Shown piece after piece: positions 20,211 through 50,331 of a stretch of DNA of 64,000 nucleotides; the first letter of the stretch is position 1, and the number at the start of each line of letters is the position of its first letter. This stretch comes from Rubritalea profundi. Lineage in GTDB: Bacteria; Verrucomicrobiota; Verrucomicrobiia; Verrucomicrobiales; Akkermansiaceae. Both the position numbers and the translations under genes were made by a program. Under the pieces are notes generated by a model. The model made no database searches and had not been told where the DNA came from. It saw only the letters and a program-made list of their open reading frames with translations. The stretch is taken from NCBI RefSeq assembly GCF_002954445.1, contig NZ_MQWA01000001.1:3803780-3867779 (forward strand), given 5' to 3'.

Positions 20211-21977
20211 TCACTTCAGTCTCTTTTGTGACCTGAGTCCTAGTTTATTCTCTTTCCCTACAAATTCTCCCTCTAAGACCTGCATGCTGTTACGGTCCAT
20301 AAGGTAGCCGAATTCTCCATTTGATGAGGCATCACTCTTACTCCACTTCAAGAGATTAATACGCTGAGCGATAAGGCCAGAAAAACGATTCTTGCTTACC
20401 TCGACTCGCTCAGCCGTGAGGCTAGCTCCTAGGCTAAGGTAAATACCGCACTCACGATTGGCTCTGGAATGCACATCCACTAGGGTGACTAGAGACTTCA
20501 TGCCAGAGACCACAACTCCAGATTTAGAGTTTCTTTCTATCACTGAAGACTCAAGCAGAGCAGTCGCTCCCCCCCAAACGTCAACTCCATGGTCGGCATT
20601 CCCCTGAAAAATTGAATCATTCACATGAACGCTACTGGTGGGGCCGAAGACTGCAAGACCATCCCAGTGGTTGCCAGAGAATCTACAATGCTCAATCTTA
20701 GCCAATCCGCCACTGACAGCCATTCCATGGTTGGCTGACCCTGAAATTTCCACATGCGAAAGATCTAGCCGCCCCCCTCTGTGTAGAATAAGCGGATATT
20801 TCCCAGCGTCACTGATGAACCACGCAAGGAGAGATGGGAAACTTTAGAGGTTTTTTTAGGATGAAAAAAATGCAACCCAGACCCATTTACTGTTCTAGAC
20901 TCTATAATAGTGACACCCACTCCAGCCCCCTTGATAACCACAGATTTATTAATTTCTAAATCAACATAAAACACACCCTCACCGAGCACAATAGTCCCCC
21001 CCCTTTTGTAGGAGTGAGTAAGCTTCGTCTAATGTGGGGACACCAGCAGGAACGCGTACTACTTGAGGATGAGAAAGGAGTTTTTGATGCATTAGAATCA
21101 ACTTTGGATGCTCCCCTAGCCGCTTTATCTCAGATTCGACATCCTCTAATAAATGAGCAGAATATTCACCCGAATCTTTTAACTGGATACCCTGAACCAC
21201 GGACGTCACGATTCTGTCGACCTTCCGAAGTTGATCTAACTGCCTAGCCATTTCAGCTAACTCCTCTGGCTTTGTTTCGAGCCATCGCAAAGCACTCAAA
21301 TGTTGAGCGGCCTGCGTTTCAGCCCAACTTGTAATTGCCGTCGAGAATCCTTCTGAGTTCTCTTCTATTTGCTGACGACGCTGAACAGCCGTGTCATGTT
21401 TCTCTTTGAGGGCGAGGTGCGCGACATCTTGCTCCGCTAACTTTGAGTATTTCAGTAAAAGCTCTGAAGCGTCGTTTAGTTGCTCAACTTCGAGTAGTGC
21501 CAATATCGATGACCTTAATTTTTCTAATTCTATCCGATGAGCAATTGCTTGTTTGTTCTGAAATATACGGATTTTCAGTTCGTGTACTTTTGTTAAGAAC
21601 GCGCTATCAGAATCCAGTATACTAGCGCGTCTTAACTCTCGAGTGGCTTCATCGACCTCCTCTAACTCTAGGTGCGTTTGGACTTGAATAAGTCACAATT
21701 GAACATCCTTGCGAAGAGCCAACTGAATCTGTACTGCGCGTTCTACCTGCACCTGACGCGTCCGATCTAATGCGCATCTACGCAACTTAAAGAAGACGCC
21801 AACTCCAGCCACAATGACCAGCAAAAACACCAGCAGTAAACGCGCCTTGCTGAATCCTTGCACGTTATACCAGTTCTGCCGTGAAGAGTTTTTTTCATAG
21901 AGCTTTAACTCATAACACAAATGAGTACGACTAGTCGACAAATCCTTGAACTGTTGGCATTCGCCGACACATCCCAA
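20211..21977 (-). pseudogene. interrupted gene for a membrane-anchored coiled-coil/right-handed beta-helix protein
   Basis: Four minus-strand pieces form one protein of about 590 residues. Piece one (about 21977-21693) has a membrane segment with ARLLLVFLLVIVAGVGVFF. An in-frame TGA at 21693-21695 ends it, yet the same frame continues with LIQVQTHLELEEVDEATREL into a coiled-coil region (to about 21040). After SLLQKGG the frame is broken at a run of eight G (20996-21003, plus-strand C); with seven G it would read on into TIVLGEGVFYVDLEINKSVV, the start of a parallel beta-helix. A second shift between about 20785 and 20830 returns to the first frame, and the helix then runs to 20211 with repeats such as HCRFSGNHWDGLAVFG and SVIERNSKSGVVVSGM. 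The start is also unclear: only TTG codons are in frame, although one more A in the A7 run at 21889-21895 would give an ATG start, MKKNSSRQNW. Either a decayed gene or several sequencing errors. Confidence 0.75.
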
Positions 21978-23571
21978 ATGCCCTCGAAGTCACACGAATT
22001 CCCGGCGGCGCCTGCTGACGCTTCCATTCATTCAAATCAACCTTCCGCTGCACCCATCTCACAGTATTCTCAGCGTAGCCATGGCTATTGATGATATCCT
22101 CGCATGAGAGTTGGTAATTCACGTAAAGCTCTAATATCAAATCCAGCAGAACATAGGGCGGAGCTGTTTCATTTCCATATTTATGAGGCTTCTTGGACGA
22201 TTCTTCTTCAAGTTCAATAAGAGCCTTTGAGATTAGCTCCCTCTCATTGTTAGAGAAATGGGCGAGCTTATGTACAATAATTTTAGGCACATCACTGAGC
22301 ACAGCTAGACCGTGAGAACTATCACCACCCAGTAATTGGTGGCCAACCGATAGATCTGACTTATTTGCTGAGGAGAGTACTAAATAATTATTACTACGCG
22401 CATATGCCATCAACAACATCGCTCTAATCCTAGAGCTAACGCCCTGATCAACTAGAGGGTGGTCAAGATCAGTTAAAATTCCACCTAAGACTAAATCAGC
22501 TGACTGTTTCACAACATCGACAGAGATATTCTTGTGCTCAATCCCCAATTTTTCGGCTAATTCTACAGCTCGACAAACGGATTCGATCGATTGGCACTCG
22601 TCCGGCATAATCAAAACCTTGACCTGATCCGCTCCAAGAGCACGAACTGCAAGACATGCGACCAGCGAAGATTCGATATTTCCATTGAGAATCATAGCAA
22701 TAGCTCCGAATCCAGCCTTGCGAGCGTAATCCTGAATACCTAGCACTAGGCCTTTGTGGACATCCTCCACATCAATACAGCGCATTTTGGGTGCGTCTGT
22801 GCCGCATTTTGAAATGTCGACAACCTTAAAGCATGAGGTGAAGCCTGGCAGGTTAGAAATCTCATTTCCATCAGCATCAAGCACCAGCGAGTTACCATCA
22901 AAAACAAGTTGTTCGTTCATTCCCACAGCATTACAACAGACTAATGGAGCATTTGCACCACACGCAACAACCTCCAGCAAGCTCGCGCGGTGCTTAGGTA
23001 TCCCTTTATAGAAAGGTGACGCACTAATGTTGATGATGAGATCCGCACCATCTTCTTTCAGTTCAGCGATCGGATCTCTTTGGTAAATCGGTCGGCGTAT
23101 GTAGTCTTCCAGCCAAATGTCCTCACCAATAGTAAGGCCAATGCGCCTCCCACCGAAGTTGAACGCCTTACATTCAGATGAGGGCTCGAAATACTTATGC
23201 TCATCGAATATGTCGTATGAGGGCAATAATGTCTTCCAAATCTTTTTACGTATTCTTCCCTGGTGAAGGAATGCGGCAGCGTTACGCAGTGGCTTGCCGG
23301 GCTGAACAAAATCGTGAAAATCAATGTAGCCAACAATCAATGGAATATCACCGGTTTCATCCGCCAGATAGTCTAGTGCTTGTAGACACTTTTCGACAAA
23401 GCGATCCTTAGTGACCAAATCTCGTGGTGGATAGCCCACTAGAGATAACTCTGGAGTCACCACTATTTCAGCCCCTGTATCTACACAGGCTCTATAGGCT
23501 TGCATGATGAGCTTTGCGTTTCGGGGGAAGTCGCCGATGTTAGAATTTATCTGTGCTATACCAATTTTCAT
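21931..23571 (-). CDS. NadE-like protein (glutamine-dependent NAD+ synthetase homologue) with altered active sites
   Basis: 546 residues with the full two-domain layout of glutamine-dependent NAD+ synthetase: a nitrilase-fold glutaminase domain (about 1-265) and an N-type ATP pyrophosphatase synthetase domain (about 275-546, ending QAPPGIRVTSRAFGMCRRMP). In the glutaminase domain the catalytic Glu41 (TPELSLVGYPP) and Lys113 (KTLLPSYDIFDE) are kept, but the nucleophile Cys of the usual CEDxW motif is Gly149 (TIGEDIWLED). In the synthetase domain the ATP-binding SGGIDS loop reads NGNIES (296-301), TTGNKSE reads SSANKSD, and the TLYGDMAGG stretch reads LLGGDSSHG. Normal NAD synthesis by this protein is therefore doubtful. 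Otherwise intact, with a good start (MKIGIAQINSNIGDF). It lies between the CPBP protease and the broken beta-helix gene. Confidence 0.85.
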   Translation of the reverse strand: MKIGIAQINSNIGDFPRNAKLIMQAYRACVDTGAEIVVTPELSLVGYPPRDLVTKDRFVEKCLQALDYLADETGDIPLIVGYIDFHDFVQPGKPLRNAAAFLHQGRIRKKIWKTLLPSYDIFDEHKYFEPSSECKAFNFGGRRIGLTIGEDIWLEDYIRRPIYQRDPIAELKEDGADLIINISASPFYKGIPKHRASLLEVVACGANAPLVCCNAVGMNEQLVFDGNSLVLDADGNEISNLPGFTSCFKVVDISKCGTDAPKMRCIDVEDVHKGLVLGIQDYARKAGFGAIAMILNGNIESSLVACLAVRALGADQVKVLIMPDECQSIESVCRAVELAEKLGIEHKNISVDVVKQSADLVLGGILTDLDHPLVDQGVSSRIRAMLLMAYARSNNYLVLSSANKSDLSVGHQLLGGDSSHGLAVLSDVPKIIVHKLAHFSNNERELISKALIELEEESSKKPHKYGNETAPPYVLLDLILELYVNYQLSCEDIINSHGYAENTVRWVQRKVDLNEWKRQQAPPGIRVTSRAFGMCRRMPTVQGFVD

Positions 23572-23605: not shown

Positions 23606-24372
23606 TTACCAAAGCCCGAATTCACCAAATTGCAGCGCGTAAATCCCCATCAGCAAATTCGCCACTCCATGCATCACTACGCATGCAGCAAGGCTTTTAG
23701 TTCTATACGCAAGCCAATACATCAGTGAGCCAAACAACAGTGCCCCTAGGTAGTCGACAGGTTGATGAATTAGCACGAATGATGCTGTGATCACAAGGTA
23801 ACTTAGCAGCCGCGGCTTCCCAAAAGGCACCTTCCAATAATTTCCGTTAGGGTTGATCAAGAAGCGCATGAGGAATCCGCGCCAAAAGAGCTCCTCTACT
23901 AAGGCTACAACCACCACTGCGCGTAAAAAACGAAAGATCGTAGCCCCCCAATAACCAGCAACCCCGAACTCCGGGATCAACACACTGGGATCGAACCCAT
24001 CATCACGCGGAGCAAAGCCAAAATATTTCAGCCCCCCAACCGTTTCTTCAGTGTAACCAAGAGCATCGTACAAATAAGATGGCAGAATCCAGAGAGCTAT
24101 CCCGATCACGCCAAGAATCACTCCGAGAAAAATCCCTTTTGAAGGTCGGAAACTATAATTTTTCCAGAAAAAACAAAGAATAGCACCTACGATAAGTGTC
24201 TGCAAAGGATACATCCATTGCTCTGGCCACTCACGCCACCACGCGCATTAGGGTGCGCCCACTCGACACCGCTCTCACAGGCAATCTGCATCAGCAAATT
24301 GAGCACCATGAAAATTGCTAGCGGAGCCACATAGGCGTAGCTCTTGTTATTTCGGATATTAGCTAAATTCAT
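23606..24372 (-). pseudogene. CPBP (CAAX-protease/bacteriocin-processing) family intramembrane protease, frameshifted
   Basis: The gene starts at ATG 24372, overlapping the TGA of the aminotransferase as ATGA, which indicates translational coupling. The first frame encodes MNLANIRNNKSYAYVAPLAI and a membrane segment, then after HPNAR it runs off into a false tail. From about 24240 the protein continues in another frame with WREWPEQWMYPLQTLIVGAI and goes on to the catalytic region: VVALVEELFWRGFLMR (EExxxR), VLIHQPVDYLGALLFG (His) and VVMHGVANLL (His), ending GEFGLW at 23606. One missing base at about 24240-24244 explains the split; repaired, the protein would be about 255 residues with seven or so membrane segments. 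Catalytic residues are intact. Real mutation or sequencing error cannot be told from here. Confidence 0.78.
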
Positions 24373-25547
24373 GCTGGAGTTTCTAGGATTCTAACAAACT
24401 GCTCGATGCGATCCATTGCAATCACAATATCCTCCATGGAAGTGGCATAACAGCAACGTAGGAACCCCTCACCGCATGCACCAAAGGCATCACCGGGAAC
24501 TGCAGCCACGTTTGTAGCCTCCAACAAGCGCATAGCAAATTCCTTGCTCTTGAGTCCAAATTTACTAATTTCTGGGAAAACATAAAATGCGCCACCTGGG
24601 CTATGACAATCGAGCCCCATTGCATTGAGTCGCTTCACCATGAAGTCACGGCGCTGGTGATAACTAGCCTTCATTTTCTCCACCGACTCCGCGCCGTTTT
24701 GTAAGGCTTCTATAGCTGCAGCTTGGCTGGTAATGGGTGCGCACAACATCGAGTATTGATGAATCTTCATCATGGCTTCGATAATCGGTTGAGGCGCACA
24801 TGCGTACCCCAGTCGAAAACCAGTCATCGCAAACGCCTTTGAAAACCCATGGAGCAATATAGTTCTCTCCTTCATCCCTGGGAGACTCGCTATAGAGGTA
24901 TGCTCTGGATCATCATAGCGCAACTCACTATAAATCTCATCGGTGATCACCATGAGATCGTGCTTCACACAGAGTTCAGCAATCTCTTTTAGGTCGTCAT
25001 TTGAGATCGTCGCTCCGGTTGGATTGGTTGGGAAATTCAACATCAGCACCCTGCTCTTAGGTGTAATCACTTTTTCTAAGGCATCAGCCTTGAGAGAAAA
25101 GCCGTCTTTTTTGAAAGTGGGGACGGCCACAGCCTCACCGTAAGCCATCGTGATGCTCGGGCAATAGGAAACATAACAAGGCTCATGGTAGATCACTTCA
25201 TCTCCAGGGTTCAATAACGCGCGCAGTGCTATATCAATCGCCTCACTGACACCTACAGTCACTAACACTTCACTCTCGGCTTTGTAATCGACAGCAAAAA
25301 AATCACTCACATATCCGGAAATAAGTTTTCGCAGCTGGAGTAAGCCTAGATTTGAGGTGTAGCTAGTGTGCCCTTTTTCCAAAGAATAGATAGCTGCTTC
25401 CCTAATATTCCATGGAGTTTGGAAATCTGGCTCACCAACACCGAGTGAGATGACGTCATCTCGCCCCTGCACAAGCTCGAAGAAATCTCGAATCCCGGAT
25501 CGAGGAACGGCAGCTACTTGACGCGCAATTTTACTTGAATAATCCAT
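24369..25547 (-). CDS. PLP-dependent aminotransferase, class I/II (AlaT/PatA-like)
   Basis: 392 residues of fold-type I. The motifs are GVGEPDFQTPWNI, YTSNLGLLQLRK, NFPTNPTGATIS, the cofactor-binding Asp203 in VITDEIYSEL, Lys237 in HGFSKAFAMTGFRLGYA, and the C-terminal Arg in EGFLRCCYA. It closely resembles the family of Bacillus subtilis AlaT (YugH) and PatA. The gene immediately upstream encodes an Lrp/AsnC regulator, the same pairing as alaR-alaT in B. subtilis, which favours an alanine/pyruvate-linked aminotransferase. Substrate specificity cannot be read from the sequence. It overlaps the CPBP gene downstream by 4 bp. Confidence 0.88.
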   Translation of the reverse strand: MDYSSKIARQVAAVPRSGIRDFFELVQGRDDVISLGVGEPDFQTPWNIREAAIYSLEKGHTSYTSNLGLLQLRKLISGYVSDFFAVDYKAESEVLVTVGVSEAIDIALRALLNPGDEVIYHEPCYVSYCPSITMAYGEAVAVPTFKKDGFSLKADALEKVITPKSRVLMLNFPTNPTGATISNDDLKEIAELCVKHDLMVITDEIYSELRYDDPEHTSIASLPGMKERTILLHGFSKAFAMTGFRLGYACAPQPIIEAMMKIHQYSMLCAPITSQAAAIEALQNGAESVEKMKASYHQRRDFMVKRLNAMGLDCHSPGGAFYVFPEISKFGLKSKEFAMRLLEATNVAAVPGDAFGACGEGFLRCCYATSMEDIVIAMDRIEQFVRILETPA

Positions 25548-25554
25548 CTCTAAA

Positions 25555-26040
25555 TTACGGTGAAACTACGAGGCGGCCTTCTGGCTCTTCTTGCTCGAAG
25601 AGGAAACCATGTACTTTATATGCTTTCAATCTAAAGTGTGTTGCCGTGGATAAAACTCCATCAATCGTGCTGAGTTTTTCACTGACGAAGCTAGCAACCT
25701 CTCTCAAGTTAGGTCCCTCGACAGTAACCATGAGGTCGTAACCTCCACTAGCTAAATAACATGCCTCGACCTGTTCAAATCTAGCAATGCGCATGGCAAG
25801 ACGGTCAAATCCACCACCGCGCTCGGGAGTGAGTTTCACTTCAATAAATGCAGACACACTCGTGTCGCCGCTGTGCTCACTATTGATCACAGCGTGATAC
25901 CCTAAAATCGTGCCATCTGTCTCCCAATCCGCCACCTTGTCAGATACTGACTTTTCGTCTAACTGCAGGATGTCTGCGATCTCTTTATGGGAGTATCTGG
26001 CCTTTTGGCTAAGCAGTTGGAGTAGTGGGTCGACTGGCAT
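25555..26040 (-). CDS. Lrp/AsnC family transcriptional regulator (AlaR-like)
   Basis: 161 residues. The N-terminal helix-turn-helix (about 12-60) contains YSHKEIADILQLDEKSVSDKV and a wing GTILGYHAVIN. A C-terminal RAM/AsnC ligand-binding domain (about 75-150) contains AFIEVKLTPERGGGFDR and ASGGYDLMVTVEGPNL. It lies 7 bp upstream of the aminotransferase and probably regulates this unit in response to an amino acid. By family it forms dimers or octamers and may autoregulate. It is the first gene of a minus-strand run that extends to the broken beta-helix gene. Confidence 0.88.
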   Translation of the reverse strand: MPVDPLLQLLSQKARYSHKEIADILQLDEKSVSDKVADWETDGTILGYHAVINSEHSGDTSVSAFIEVKLTPERGGGFDRLAMRIARFEQVEACYLASGGYDLMVTVEGPNLREVASFVSEKLSTIDGVLSTATHFRLKAYKVHGFLFEQEEPEGRLVVSP

Positions 26041-32599: not shown

Positions 32600-33454
32600 A
32601 TGGACATTATCACTACTGTAACTGACCTTCTCTTCGCGAAGAAGAAATACCTCACCGCGCCGGTTCTCGTGCCCACTATGGGGGCGCTTCATGATGGACA
32701 CCTCGCTCTAATAGAGAAAGCTAGAGCTATTGCTGGACCAAATGGTTGCGTCGCCGTATCCATTTTTGTCAATCCAATCCAGTTCGACAACCCTGACGAC
32801 CTCAAGAATTACCCATCAACTCTCCAGCGTGATATAGCTATCTGTGGGGAGCGCGGGGTTGATCTACTTTTTACACCAGATACTGGAAGCCTCTACTCAG
32901 CAAATCACTCCACCGTGATCACTGAGGACTGCCTAGCCTCGAAACTGTGTGGAGCCACGCGGTCCGGACACTTTGATGGTGTTTGCACAGTTGTCGCGAA
33001 GCTCTTCAATATATTCACCCCTATCGATGCCGTTTTCGGAAAGAAAGATTACCAACAACTGGCCATCATCAACCGCATGGTGCGCGATCTCAATTTTCAA
33101 GTCATCATTCATGGTGTCGACACTGTCAGGGAGAACGATGGACTCGCCCTCTCCTCGCGAAACGTTCACTTAAGTAGTGACGCTAGAACTCAGGCACCAG
33201 CGATACGCCAAGCGATGCTGTTAGCTCAAAAATCTCTCGCTTCAGGTGTGGATGATAGCGCTAAACTCCTAGAAGCAATGAAGAGCCACCTTAGCACTCA
33301 CGCTCCGCTCGCTGAAATCAACTATTTAGAATGTGTTTGCGCTAACTCCTTGCAACCACAAGTGAGAATCATCCAGAAGTCCCTGATAACAATTGCCGCC
33401 TGCTTTGGCGATGTCAGACTTATTGACAATATCGAGCTTGTCCCAGCTAACTAA
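32600..33454 (+). CDS. panC: pantothenate synthetase
   Basis: ATP-dependent ligation of pantoate and beta-alanine. 284 residues, the usual length. VPTMGALHDGHLALIEKAR (24-42) carries the HxGH-type nucleotide motif, VSIFVNPIQFDNPDDL follows, then DGVCTVVAKLFNIFTP, AVFGKKDYQQLAII (KMSK-equivalent region) and ENDGLALSSRNVHLS. The start MDIITTVTDLL is the only one that fits. The panB and panD genes are not in the window. It is followed after 20 bp by nadB on the same strand, so the two cofactor genes may be co-transcribed. Confidence 0.95.
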   Translation: MDIITTVTDLLFAKKKYLTAPVLVPTMGALHDGHLALIEKARAIAGPNGCVAVSIFVNPIQFDNPDDLKNYPSTLQRDIAICGERGVDLLFTPDTGSLYSANHSTVITEDCLASKLCGATRSGHFDGVCTVVAKLFNIFTPIDAVFGKKDYQQLAIINRMVRDLNFQVIIHGVDTVRENDGLALSSRNVHLSSDARTQAPAIRQAMLLAQKSLASGVDDSAKLLEAMKSHLSTHAPLAEINYLECVCANSLQPQVRIIQKSLITIAACFGDVRLIDNIELVPAN

Positions 33455-33474
33455 GCAACCCACACTCCCCGCAT

Positions 33475-35097
33475 ATGGTTTCTGACTTCCTAGTCCTCGG
33501 TTCAGGCATTGCAGGCCTCTCGTTTGCATTACGCGCAGCAGAGCATGGCTCCGTTACAATTCTCACTAAAGGTGAGGCGCTAGACTCTAACACGGCATGG
33601 GCCCAAGGAGGCATCTCCGCCGTTCTCGATCCCAACTTAAGATCTGAGGGGGATTCCTTTGAGCAACACGTTGCCGACACTCTGGACGCTGGCGCCGGTC
33701 TTTGCAAGGAATCCGTCGTTAGAGATATAGTCAGCGAAGGAACTGCCACGATCGATGAGCTGCTTTCATATGGTGTAACTTTCGACAAGAGCAATCAAGA
33801 CCCAGAGCTCTTTGCCCTTGGGAATGAAGGCGGCCACACTAAACGTCGGGTGCTCCACTCGAAAGACACCACAGGTTACGCCATCGTCTCAGCTTTGATA
33901 AAGAAGGTAAAAGCGCACCCGAGTATCACCTTTCTTGAAAATCACTTTGCTATCGACCTCATCACCACCGGTAAACTGGGTGTCGTAACTGAAGATCGTG
34001 TCCTTGGAGCCTATGTGCTAGATGAGGATTCTGGGGAGGTTAACATTTTCAGGTCTGACCGCATCGTGCTCGCTACTGGGGGGTGCGGCAAAGTCTACCT
34101 TTACACCACTAATCCAGACAGCTCGACAGGCGATGGATTGGCGATGGCTTGGCGCGCAGGAGCGACCATCTCAAATATGGAATTTGTACAGTTTCATCCA
34201 ACCTGTTTTTACAACCCGGCAGCAGTAGGCGCAAAAGCTCGCTCATTCCTCGTCTCGGAAGCTGTGCGCGGAGAAGGTGGACGCCTAGTGAATGCTGACG
34301 GTGAAGAATTCACTCTAGAGCACGACTCCAGAGGCTCGCTCGCTCCCCGCGACATCGTAGCTCGCGCTATTGATCACGAAATTAAGAAAACTGGAGCAAG
34401 TTGCGTATACCTAGACGTTACCCATAAGCCCGTTGGCTTCATGCGCGAGCGCTTCCCTAATATCTATAACACACTGCTGAAATTTGGACTCGATTGCGAA
34501 AAACAACCAATCCCAGTGGTTCCAGCAGCCCACTACCAATGCGGCGGAGCTGTGACTGACGCCAATGGGAAAACGACAATTCGAGGTCTCTTTGCAGTAG
34601 GTGAAGTGGCATGCACTGGGCTTCATGGAGCGAACCGTTTAGCATCAAACTCACTCCTTGAAGGGAATGTGGTTGCCCGCCGAGCCTTGAACTCAATGCT
34701 CAAGAGTTACCCACTGCAACTCGTCTCGCCGAGCTCCCCACCAATTCCAGCATGGGAAGATGGAGATGCGACCTCGATCGATGAACAAGTCCTCATCTCA
34801 CAGAACTGGGATGAGCTGCGCCGATTGATGTGGAACTACGTCTCTATCGTGAGGACTGACAACCGACTCAAGCGTGCCGCTCATCGGCTAAGAAACCTTC
34901 GCAAAGAAGTGCGTGAGTATTATTGGGGCTTTAAAGTAAACTCAGACATCCTCGAGTTGCGCAATCTGGTAACAGTCGCGGCTCTCATCGTAGATTGCGC
35001 CATTCAGCGTAAGGAATCTAGAGGGATTCACTACACATTAGACTACCCAACTAAAAATCCAAAATACCAACGCGATACTGAATTGCGACGATTCTAA
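33475..35097 (+). CDS. nadB: L-aspartate oxidase
   Basis: FAD enzyme that oxidises L-aspartate to iminoaspartate, the first step of de novo NAD synthesis. 540 residues. The N-terminal FAD motif is FLVLGSGIAGLSFALRA, with NTAWAQGGISAVL after it. Further motifs are GGHTKRRVLHSKDTTG, EFVQFHPTCF, SEAVRGEGGRLVNADG and the C-terminal FAD segment VGEVACTGLHGANRLASNSL, then the helical domain of the succinate dehydrogenase/fumarate reductase fold. EFVQFHPT with Glu separates NadB from SdhA. Its stop overlaps that of the convergent MFS gene by 4 bp. nadD is at 49.7 kb; nadA and nadC are not in the window. Confidence 0.95.
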   Translation: MVSDFLVLGSGIAGLSFALRAAEHGSVTILTKGEALDSNTAWAQGGISAVLDPNLRSEGDSFEQHVADTLDAGAGLCKESVVRDIVSEGTATIDELLSYGVTFDKSNQDPELFALGNEGGHTKRRVLHSKDTTGYAIVSALIKKVKAHPSITFLENHFAIDLITTGKLGVVTEDRVLGAYVLDEDSGEVNIFRSDRIVLATGGCGKVYLYTTNPDSSTGDGLAMAWRAGATISNMEFVQFHPTCFYNPAAVGAKARSFLVSEAVRGEGGRLVNADGEEFTLEHDSRGSLAPRDIVARAIDHEIKKTGASCVYLDVTHKPVGFMRERFPNIYNTLLKFGLDCEKQPIPVVPAAHYQCGGAVTDANGKTTIRGLFAVGEVACTGLHGANRLASNSLLEGNVVARRALNSMLKSYPLQLVSPSSPPIPAWEDGDATSIDEQVLISQNWDELRRLMWNYVSIVRTDNRLKRAAHRLRNLRKEVREYYWGFKVNSDILELRNLVTVAALIVDCAIQRKESRGIHYTLDYPTKNPKYQRDTELRRF

Positions 35098-49717: not shown

Positions 49718-49737
49718 AGCGCAAAGCTAGATATTCA

Positions 49738-50331
49738 ATGAACGAATCGCAAATGAAAATATGCCTATTTGGTGGCACCTTCGATCCCATCCACCTAGGC
49801 CACACTTTTATTGCTCATCAAGCAGTCTCTCAACTAGGGATAGATAAAGTCATCTTTCTCCCCTGCAAGCAATCTCCACATAAATTAGAGATGCAATCAG
49901 CGACTGCTGAGGAACGCCTCAAGATGTGTCAACTGGCTACATCCAAGCTGCCATGGGCAGAGGTTAGCGACTATGATCTCACTTCTCCCCCACCATCGTA
50001 TTCATGGCGCACCGCTGAGCATTTCAAGTCACTTTACCCGAATGCCCAGTTATTCTGGTTGATGGGAACCGACCAATGGCAATCAATCTCGCGCTGGGAT
50101 CGAGCCCACCATTTCGCAAATTTGCTAAGAATCATCGTCTACAGCCGCGATTCTGAAGCCATTCCCGTGAATGAATTCGAGTCGACATTACTCAACACTC
50201 TACAACATCCAGCTGCGGCGACGGTCGTCCGCCAGCAAATTGCGGCTAACCTCACTTCCCCCTGGCTCCACCCTCAAGTCGCCAGCTTAATCAAAAAAAA
50301 TCAGCTCTACCTCAAGTCGCCACTTGATTAA
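49738..50331 (+). CDS. nadD: nicotinate-nucleotide adenylyltransferase
   Basis: Adenylates nicotinate mononucleotide in NAD synthesis. 197 residues (192 if the second ATG at 49753 is used, which begins directly at the first strand MKICLFGG). GGTFDPIHLGHTFIA is the HxGH nucleotidyltransferase motif; VIFLPCKQSPHKLEM, MGTDQWQSISRWDRAHH and VYSRDSEAI complete the family. The usual C-terminal ISSTxIR motif is not seen; the C-terminus instead reads AAATVVRQQIAANLTSPWL, somewhat diverged. It comes just before a TPR protein on the same strand. Confidence 0.9.
   Translation: MNESQMKICLFGGTFDPIHLGHTFIAHQAVSQLGIDKVIFLPCKQSPHKLEMQSATAEERLKMCQLATSKLPWAEVSDYDLTSPPPSYSWRTAEHFKSLYPNAQLFWLMGTDQWQSISRWDRAHHFANLLRIIVYSRDSEAIPVNEFESTLLNTLQHPAAATVVRQQIAANLTSPWLHPQVASLIKKNQLYLKSPLD

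Follow-up and report, generated by a model that had tools for sequence, protein, structure and literature searches.

Why would a marine bacterium keep an intact gene for an NAD synthetase, an essential vitamin-B3 enzyme, when its two active sites appear to have been destroyed? This question is raised by a 64,000-nucleotide stretch of the Rubritalea profundi genome (contig NZ_MQWA01000001.1, forward-strand positions 3,803,780 to 3,867,779; hereafter, the window), which encodes a 546-residue homologue of NadE, the glutamine-dependent synthetase of nicotinamide adenine dinucleotide (NAD+). An earlier note on this DNA had described the protein as a full-length NadE with both active sites degenerate, and had suggested either a regulatory pseudoenzyme or an amidase or ligase with another substrate. 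The explanation that we consider likely is a maintained pseudoenzyme: an old NadE, displaced by a second synthetase, would have lost its chemistry while keeping a binding or scaffold role.

Both active sites are altered within a predicted NadE fold

The gene is a single uninterrupted frame (Table 1), and Pfam assigns its product a CN_hydrolase domain (residues 2–245, 64 bits) followed by an NAD_synthase domain (275–521, 123.8 bits); the open reading frame, the domains and the fold match described below bear out the claim of a full-length NadE homologue with its domain order kept. In domain order, length and fold, the protein resembles the type 2 enzymes, NadE2 (PDB 4f4h, 5kha and 3n05, which are also its closest solved sequences; NCBIfam equivalog NF010588), with which it shares 29–34% identity. 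However, it differs from them in the nucleophile Cys, in the motifs for ATP and nicotinic acid adenine dinucleotide (NaAD), and in its family score: NF010588 spans residues 1–544 at 452.8 bits, below the cut-off of 479. The orthologue of Rubritalea marina scores 427.7 bits, those of two further Rubritalea genomes, G003 and G007, score 527.4 and 606.8 bits, and the canonical G017 protein scores 697.2 bits. The B. thailandensis enzyme is of type 2 according to PMC7196632.

Within the Glu–Lys–Cys triad that characterizes NadE2, Glu41 and Lys113, which we take to be the triad's first two members, are retained, and the Cys has become Gly149. All four remaining NadE2 hallmarks (the SGGxDS PP-loop, TTGNKSE, YGDM and PSAEL) are changed. 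Codons and alignment agree with the earlier description of NGNIES, SSANKSD, LLGGDSSHG and the two retained triad residues, and the proposed single-base origin of Gly149 (TGT to GGT) fits the closest Cys-bearing relative, G007, which has TGT. One detail requires correction: the DKPPSAELR region, said to lack a clear counterpart, has an aligned one at residues 453–473 (ELEEESSKKPHKYGNETAPPY), which align to the KPPSAELRPDQ stretch and keep 3 of 13 canonical-invariant residues.

To describe conservation, we used 169 alignment columns that are invariant across 20 canonical relatives, 118 of them outside and 51 inside the motif blocks. The window protein retains 93 of the 118 residues outside the blocks and only 26 of the 51 inside them (Fisher p 4.4e-4), and this concentration of losses argues against chance. 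The AlphaFold2 model of the protein (mean predicted local distance difference test score (pLDDT) 89.6; predicted template modelling score (pTM) 0.91; short weak segments) has 3n05 as its closest PDB structure (Z 38.2, root-mean-square deviation (rmsd) 2.4, 498 residues), and the fold is thus predicted to be intact. The motifs of both active sites are destroyed, from which we infer that catalysis has been lost. Pseudoenzymes generally combine a conserved fold and lost catalytic residues with purifying selection; the window protein is an enzyme homologue without its catalytic residues, although in this case it is a displaced original gene rather than a duplicate.

A second NadE accompanies motif loss

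The earlier note had reasoned that the cell, having nadB and nadD in this window (both are indeed present; Table 1), needs a working NadE elsewhere. A whole-genome search with PF02540 finds one: a 653-residue, Cytophaga-type NadE at C1:3753637-3755595, in which the motifs are intact (CED, SGGADSS, TSNRSE, DGDTSGG and PTAELRP); the genome's two remaining matches are weak and partial (about 70 positions each). This long NadE has 3ilv as its closest PDB entry (596 bits) and shares 23% identity with the window protein. The Cytophaga-type (3ilv) and Mycobacterium-type (type 1, octameric, 3dla) enzymes have the same two domains as the window protein but, unlike it, form separate subfamilies with intact motifs.

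We read five motifs at 56 type 2 loci, which are the loci returned by our searches and hence a non-random sample. All five motifs are present at 49 loci, and one more (G029) is off by one letter in one motif. Four motifs depart in each of G007 and G003, the latter keeping the Cys, and all five depart in the window genome (G000), R. marina (G010), G006 and G024; accordingly, CED is present at 52 of the 56 loci and missing from the last four. Among the 49 in-family loci for which a long NadE was also sought, all five strongly degenerate ones (G000, G010, G003, G006 and G024) are accompanied by one, as compared with 8 of the other 44 (G017, G029, G033, G072, G091, G109, G129 and G152; Fisher p 7e-4, uncorrected for kinship). 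In a further genus, g9, 23 of 27 genomes match within a long NadE only and four match nothing, so that the type 2 gene was found in none of the 27.

The collection was also scanned with profile A5. Among the best 80 of 493 relatives, 61 have all five motifs and 14 differ only at TTGNKSE; motifs are missing in R. marina (five), the G003 record (four) and the G007 record (three), one locus is cut off, and one is unreadable in the frame used. No degenerate Akkermansia locus occurs among these best 80. Three records titled Akkermansia muciniphila (L184, L190 and L200) have five motifs and 50–51% identity, and by this test stand apart from the 76-genome Akkermansia genus considered below. Two genomes of another genus of the family, 1.5–1.6 Mb in size (G015 and G027; L033 and L034), encode a divergent type 2 NadE (36% identity) with five motifs.

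Stages of change within Rubritalea

The R. marina DSM 17716 orthologue is full length, 65% identical to the window protein, and carries Gly149 (GGA) and MNGSIES. Gly149 and the changed PP-loop are therefore shared by a sister species, and because the same lesions recur in its genome, a sequencing error or assembly artefact is ruled out. R. marina retains 20 of the 51 motif-block residues and 92 of the 118 others; as in the window protein, non-motif residues are kept and motif residues lost, which indicates that the fold was kept and the chemistry lost.

Type 2 loci occur in 5 of the 12 Rubritalea genomes (the window genome, R. marina, G003, G006 and G007); six of the others have only a long NadE, and one, 58% complete, has neither type. 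G007 keeps the Cys, with TGGVDS and an altered PSAEL stretch (40 of 51 motif and 105 of 118 other residues), and no other NadE was found in its 93% complete assembly, so that this NadE may be a working enzyme despite its unusual motifs. G003 holds a long NadE, and its type 2 protein keeps the Cys beside SGGIGSS and TVNKTD (33 of 51 and 94 of 118). G006, in the same genomic place, encodes 467 residues that are 28% identical to the window protein and keep 10 of the 51 motif residues. In G024, 14 of 51 motif and 41 of 118 other residues remain, a difference that is not significant.

The window gene occupies the ancestral nadE position. Genes for a CAAX-type protease, an aminotransferase and an Lrp/AsnC regulator flank it in the window genome, R. 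marina, G003, G006, G007 and the canonical G022, which belongs to another genus, and the other flank in these six genomes holds a UvrD helicase, a beta-helix protein, or both. This gene order rules out, in Rubritalea, a paralogue in place of the original gene. One genus offers a natural series from a mostly intact enzyme (G007), through an altered synthetase site (G003), to the loss of both sites under strong constraint (window and R. marina) and, at the far end, the extremely divergent G006. Such a series would document how an essential enzyme, once displaced, became a protein without enzymatic function.

Selection on the window clade

As the number of synonymous substitutions per site (dS) is saturated between Rubritalea species, the ratio of nonsynonymous to synonymous substitution (dN/dS), which the earlier note had recommended computing, is not reliable for the window clade, and we compared codon positions in its place. 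For the pair formed by the window and R. marina, differing sites at positions 1, 2 and 3 amount to 0.29, 0.18 and 0.64 in the degenerate copy and to 0.28, 0.19 and 0.61 in the working NadE; dN by the NG86 method is 0.29 and 0.27, and amino-acid identity 65% and 70%, respectively. The frame is open although the adjoining beta-helix gene is split in the window and was not found in R. marina. Maintenance by selection thus follows for the window clade from comparison with the working NadE only, and for the Akkermansia relatives from dN/dS; in both, the claim that the gene is maintained rather than decaying stands.

Akkermansia retains a more altered relative

Using a profile of nine degenerate relatives, we found a homologue in 67 of 76 genomes of the gut bacterium Akkermansia (50 of the 55 better ones). 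The genus is identified by G140, which encodes Amuc_1100 (matched to PDB 6lad and 6kny); in A. muciniphila, the gene lies on the + strand at about 196,424–197,827 of the 2,664,102-bp genome. In 65 of the 67, the frames are open, with 414–634 residues and no inner stops; the exceptions are G171, where the gene is split (439 + 149), and G224 (214, at a contig end). These proteins are more degenerate still, keeping 109 of 714 invariant motif residues, as compared with 529 of 1652 outside the motif blocks (14 rows). A. muciniphila also has another NadE, which belongs to the Mycobacterium type (closest PDB entry 3dla, 445 bits).

In 11 Akkermansia pairs, one of which includes the split G171, dN/dS (NG86) is 0.10–0.55 for the degenerate protein and 0.08–0.20 for the long NadE; four further pairs give 0.13–0.33, so that the ratio is below 1 in 15 of 15. 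All seven pairs tested show significantly more synonymous change (p 4e-5 to 3.5e-38), and in six of these seven dN/dS is lowest in residues 1–90 (the exception being G090/G076). The AlphaFold model of an A. muciniphila-group protein, that of G068, is of comparable quality (pLDDT 89.1, pTM 0.88, short weak segments) and matches NadE 3n05 (Z 29.6, rmsd 2.8, 444 residues). Pfam detects no family at E 0.001 in the G068, G168 and G108 proteins, so that the gene is easily overlooked; the G204, G192 and G177 proteins do have matches.

Residues 1–90 are the best-kept part: the fraction of conserved positions retained there is 0.96 in the window protein, 0.79 in G006, 0.63 in Akkermansia and 0.61 in G024, and in the Lys/Cys part it is 0.11 in Akkermansia, 0.17 in G006 and 0.26 in G024. 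Across 34 aligned rows, 30 of them Akkermansia, the ten invariant residues (Gly, Gln, Arg, Pro, Ser, Leu and Glu) are distributed over the whole fold. Among Cys and Asp, only those at 30 and 32, both within the first helix, approach invariance, and none of the Lys or His residues does.

In the wide protein tree, G006 groups with Akkermansia and G024, contrary to gene order, which is probably due to long-branch attraction; in a tree without the long rows, the five Rubritalea rows form one starred group. The view that the Rubritalea and Akkermansia cases are independent derives from the difference in replacement enzymes and from the Cys that G007 and G003 continue to carry.

A displaced enzyme with a probable second role

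A protein that is folded and under purifying selection must do something that needs its shape. In the explanation that we favor, this locus would have encoded the type 2, glutamine-dependent NadE on which an ancestor relied for its NAD; the lineage then would have gained a second, long NadE of the Cytophaga type, so that the chemistry of the old enzyme could be lost. The first change in Rubritalea was probably at the synthetase site, as in G003 with its Cys and SGGIGSS, and the nucleophile (Gly149) followed. The remaining protein would have a binding role, most likely in sensing a pathway metabolite (glutamine, NaAD or NAD+) or in holding a protein partner, for which residues 1–90 are the best candidate part, together with, in the window protein, a glutamine pocket complete except for its Cys. 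Akkermansia would have ended at the same point, but with the Mycobacterium-type enzyme as the replacement and with a protein that has changed further. The background to such a displacement is given by PMC3376133, which describes NAD synthetase forms as lost in particular lineages and transferred horizontally.

Its retention suggests a further task for the old enzyme, one that requires no chemistry. If both genera kept the protein for the same reason, type 2 NadE would have a second, non-catalytic function, of which we found no description in the literature. Nor did we find, by title, any NadE pseudoenzyme, which is weak evidence as most subscription journals lay outside the coverage.

Several observations weigh against this explanation. 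The gene was not seen in 7 of 12 Rubritalea genomes (including the 58% complete one), 9 of 76 Akkermansia genomes and all of genus g9, indicating that its function is dispensable there or that the protein is too divergent to be seen. In at least seven genomes, a second, long NadE coexists with a type 2 NadE whose motifs are intact, so that displacement does not force change. The degenerate copy has evolved faster than the working NadE between the window and G003 (dN 0.49 vs 0.34) and between R. marina and G003 (0.55 vs 0.37), and far faster between the window and G006 (0.78 vs 0.23); in 10 of 11 Akkermansia pairs, its dN/dS is higher than that of the working NadE, and in the window clade the saturation of dS leaves selection to be judged by comparison. 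The retention of residues 1–90 fits a contact face but may reflect the fold core alone. Finally, the full tree weakly rejects a single Rubritalea clade (approximately unbiased (AU) test, p 0.0345), and the independence of the two genera is not proven.

Alternative explanations

The best surviving alternative, though an unlikely one, is that the nitrilase-like or PP-loop domain now catalyses another reaction with new residues, as in the amidase or ligase of the earlier note. Such a repurposed enzyme would accord with the strong constraint on the window and R. marina proteins, both of which retain Glu41, Lys113 and the greater part of the glutaminase pocket, but the nucleophile is gone from the window, R. 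marina, G006 and G024 proteins, and the invariant residues of the Akkermansia relatives, spread over the fold and lacking Lys and His, do not form an active-site-like set. Moreover, Cys-to-Ala mutants of the nitrilase-like superfamily are inactive. A weak profile likeness in the loop region to LarE and other PP-loop ATP pyrophosphatases (TIGR00268, 23 bits) falls far below the cut-off of 150, and a LarE function is unsupported.

Somewhat less probable is a regulator dependent on the signalling protein PII. According to PMC7196632, type 2 NadE is a dimer that is feedback-inhibited by NAD+ at an allosteric site, inhibition being relieved by PII; the displaced protein might have kept its PII-binding and NAD+-sensing side and might compete for PII signals or relay them. 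PII (PF00543) is present in all five Rubritalea genomes tested and in 8 of 8 non-Akkermansia family members overall, with 13 of 14 control genomes positive, but in none of eight Akkermansia genomes (G140, G068, G168, G206, G192, G122, G183 and G219), all of which keep the degenerate protein. PII binding therefore cannot be the common reason for retention, although it may matter in Rubritalea. Of the proposed regulatory pseudoenzyme, the sequence evidence favors the pseudoenzyme part; a regulatory role is no more than a candidate.

We consider it improbable that the gene is a redundant copy in slow decay, open by chance and of no present function. The 7 of 12 Rubritalea genomes in which it is unseen, the great divergence of G006 and the split gene of Akkermansia G171 would accord with decay; however, divergence at codon positions 1 and 2 between the window and R. 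marina is near that of the working NadE, the Akkermansia ratios and their nearly always open frames indicate constraint, and a stop-free frame of 467 codons would arise by chance with a probability of about 4e-12 in random sequence of G006 composition.

Because PII was found in none of the eight Akkermansia genomes and a NifA-like activator lies directly upstream of the gene in some stretches (see below), one could also propose that the Akkermansia protein is a glutamine or NAD+ sensor that replaces PII and controls a NifA-type sigma-54 activator, Rubritalea representing an earlier stage; we regard this as speculative and very improbable. No more credible is that the window protein still makes NAD with unusual motifs: G007, which shows no other NadE, indicates that the motifs tolerate some change, but G007 keeps its Cys and more motif residues than the window protein, with its NGNIES and eroded PSAEL stretch, and the window genome has another NadE with intact motifs. 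A hetero-complex with the replacement NadE is possible, but the replacements belong to different subfamilies in the two genera.

Neighboring genes and further observations

In 33 of 35 clustered Akkermansia stretches, the degenerate genes fall into one cluster. Directly upstream, a gene for a GAF-AAA-Fis activator lies on the same strand in 7 of these 33 stretches (for example, L120:6591-8138; domains checked in the G168 copy, which scores 481.8 bits with the NifA profile, below the cut-off of 528.85), and one for an LptD-like protein, named by eye, in 10 of 33; neither Pfam nor NCBIfam matches the scanned copy of the latter. The degenerate gene precedes an mlaE gene in the A. muciniphila group (domain checked in G068). 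These links are suggestive, but the neighbors vary by species group and give no firm function.

Table 1. Features of the window (positions counted from its first nucleotide)
Feature	Positions	Strand	Basis or remark
Pseudo-NadE open reading frame	21931..23571	-	546 aa, ATG start, intact frame
Residues 1–90, best-kept part in degenerate relatives (predicted strand, helix 15–31, helix 58–72)	23302..23571	-	conservation and model
Glu41 (GAG), glutaminase triad, retained	23449..23451	-	alignment, codons
Lys113 (AAG), glutaminase triad, retained	23233..23235	-	alignment, codons
Gly149 (GGT) in place of nucleophile Cys	23125..23127	-	alignment, codons
NGNIES (296–301; AAT GGA AAT ATC GAA TCT) in place of SGGIDS PP-loop	22669..22686	-	alignment, codons
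SSANKSD (400–406) in place of TTGNKSE	22354..22374	-	alignment
LLGGDSSHG (413–421; GGDSSHG vs YGDMCGG)	22309..22335	-	alignment
Residues 453–473, degenerate counterpart of KPPSAELRPDQKDQDTLPPY	22153..22215	-	alignment
CAAX-protease (Rce1-like) family neighbor	23606..24214	-	conserved beside nadE
Class I/II aminotransferase neighbor	24369..25547	-	conserved
Lrp/AsnC-type regulator neighbor	25555..26040	-	conserved
Remains of beta-helix protein gene, split over two frames	20211..21503	-	follows nadE in several relatives
nadB	33451..35094	+	
nadD	49720..50328	+	

The beta-helix gene encodes 583–768 residues in seven relatives and is frameshifted in the window; tblastn did not find it in the R. 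marina or G003 stretches. The G007 type 2 NadE (L007), unusual in residues 290–473, is seemingly the sole NadE of its assembly. Within the window, nadB and nadD lie about 10 kb and 26 kb, respectively, from the pseudo-NadE gene.

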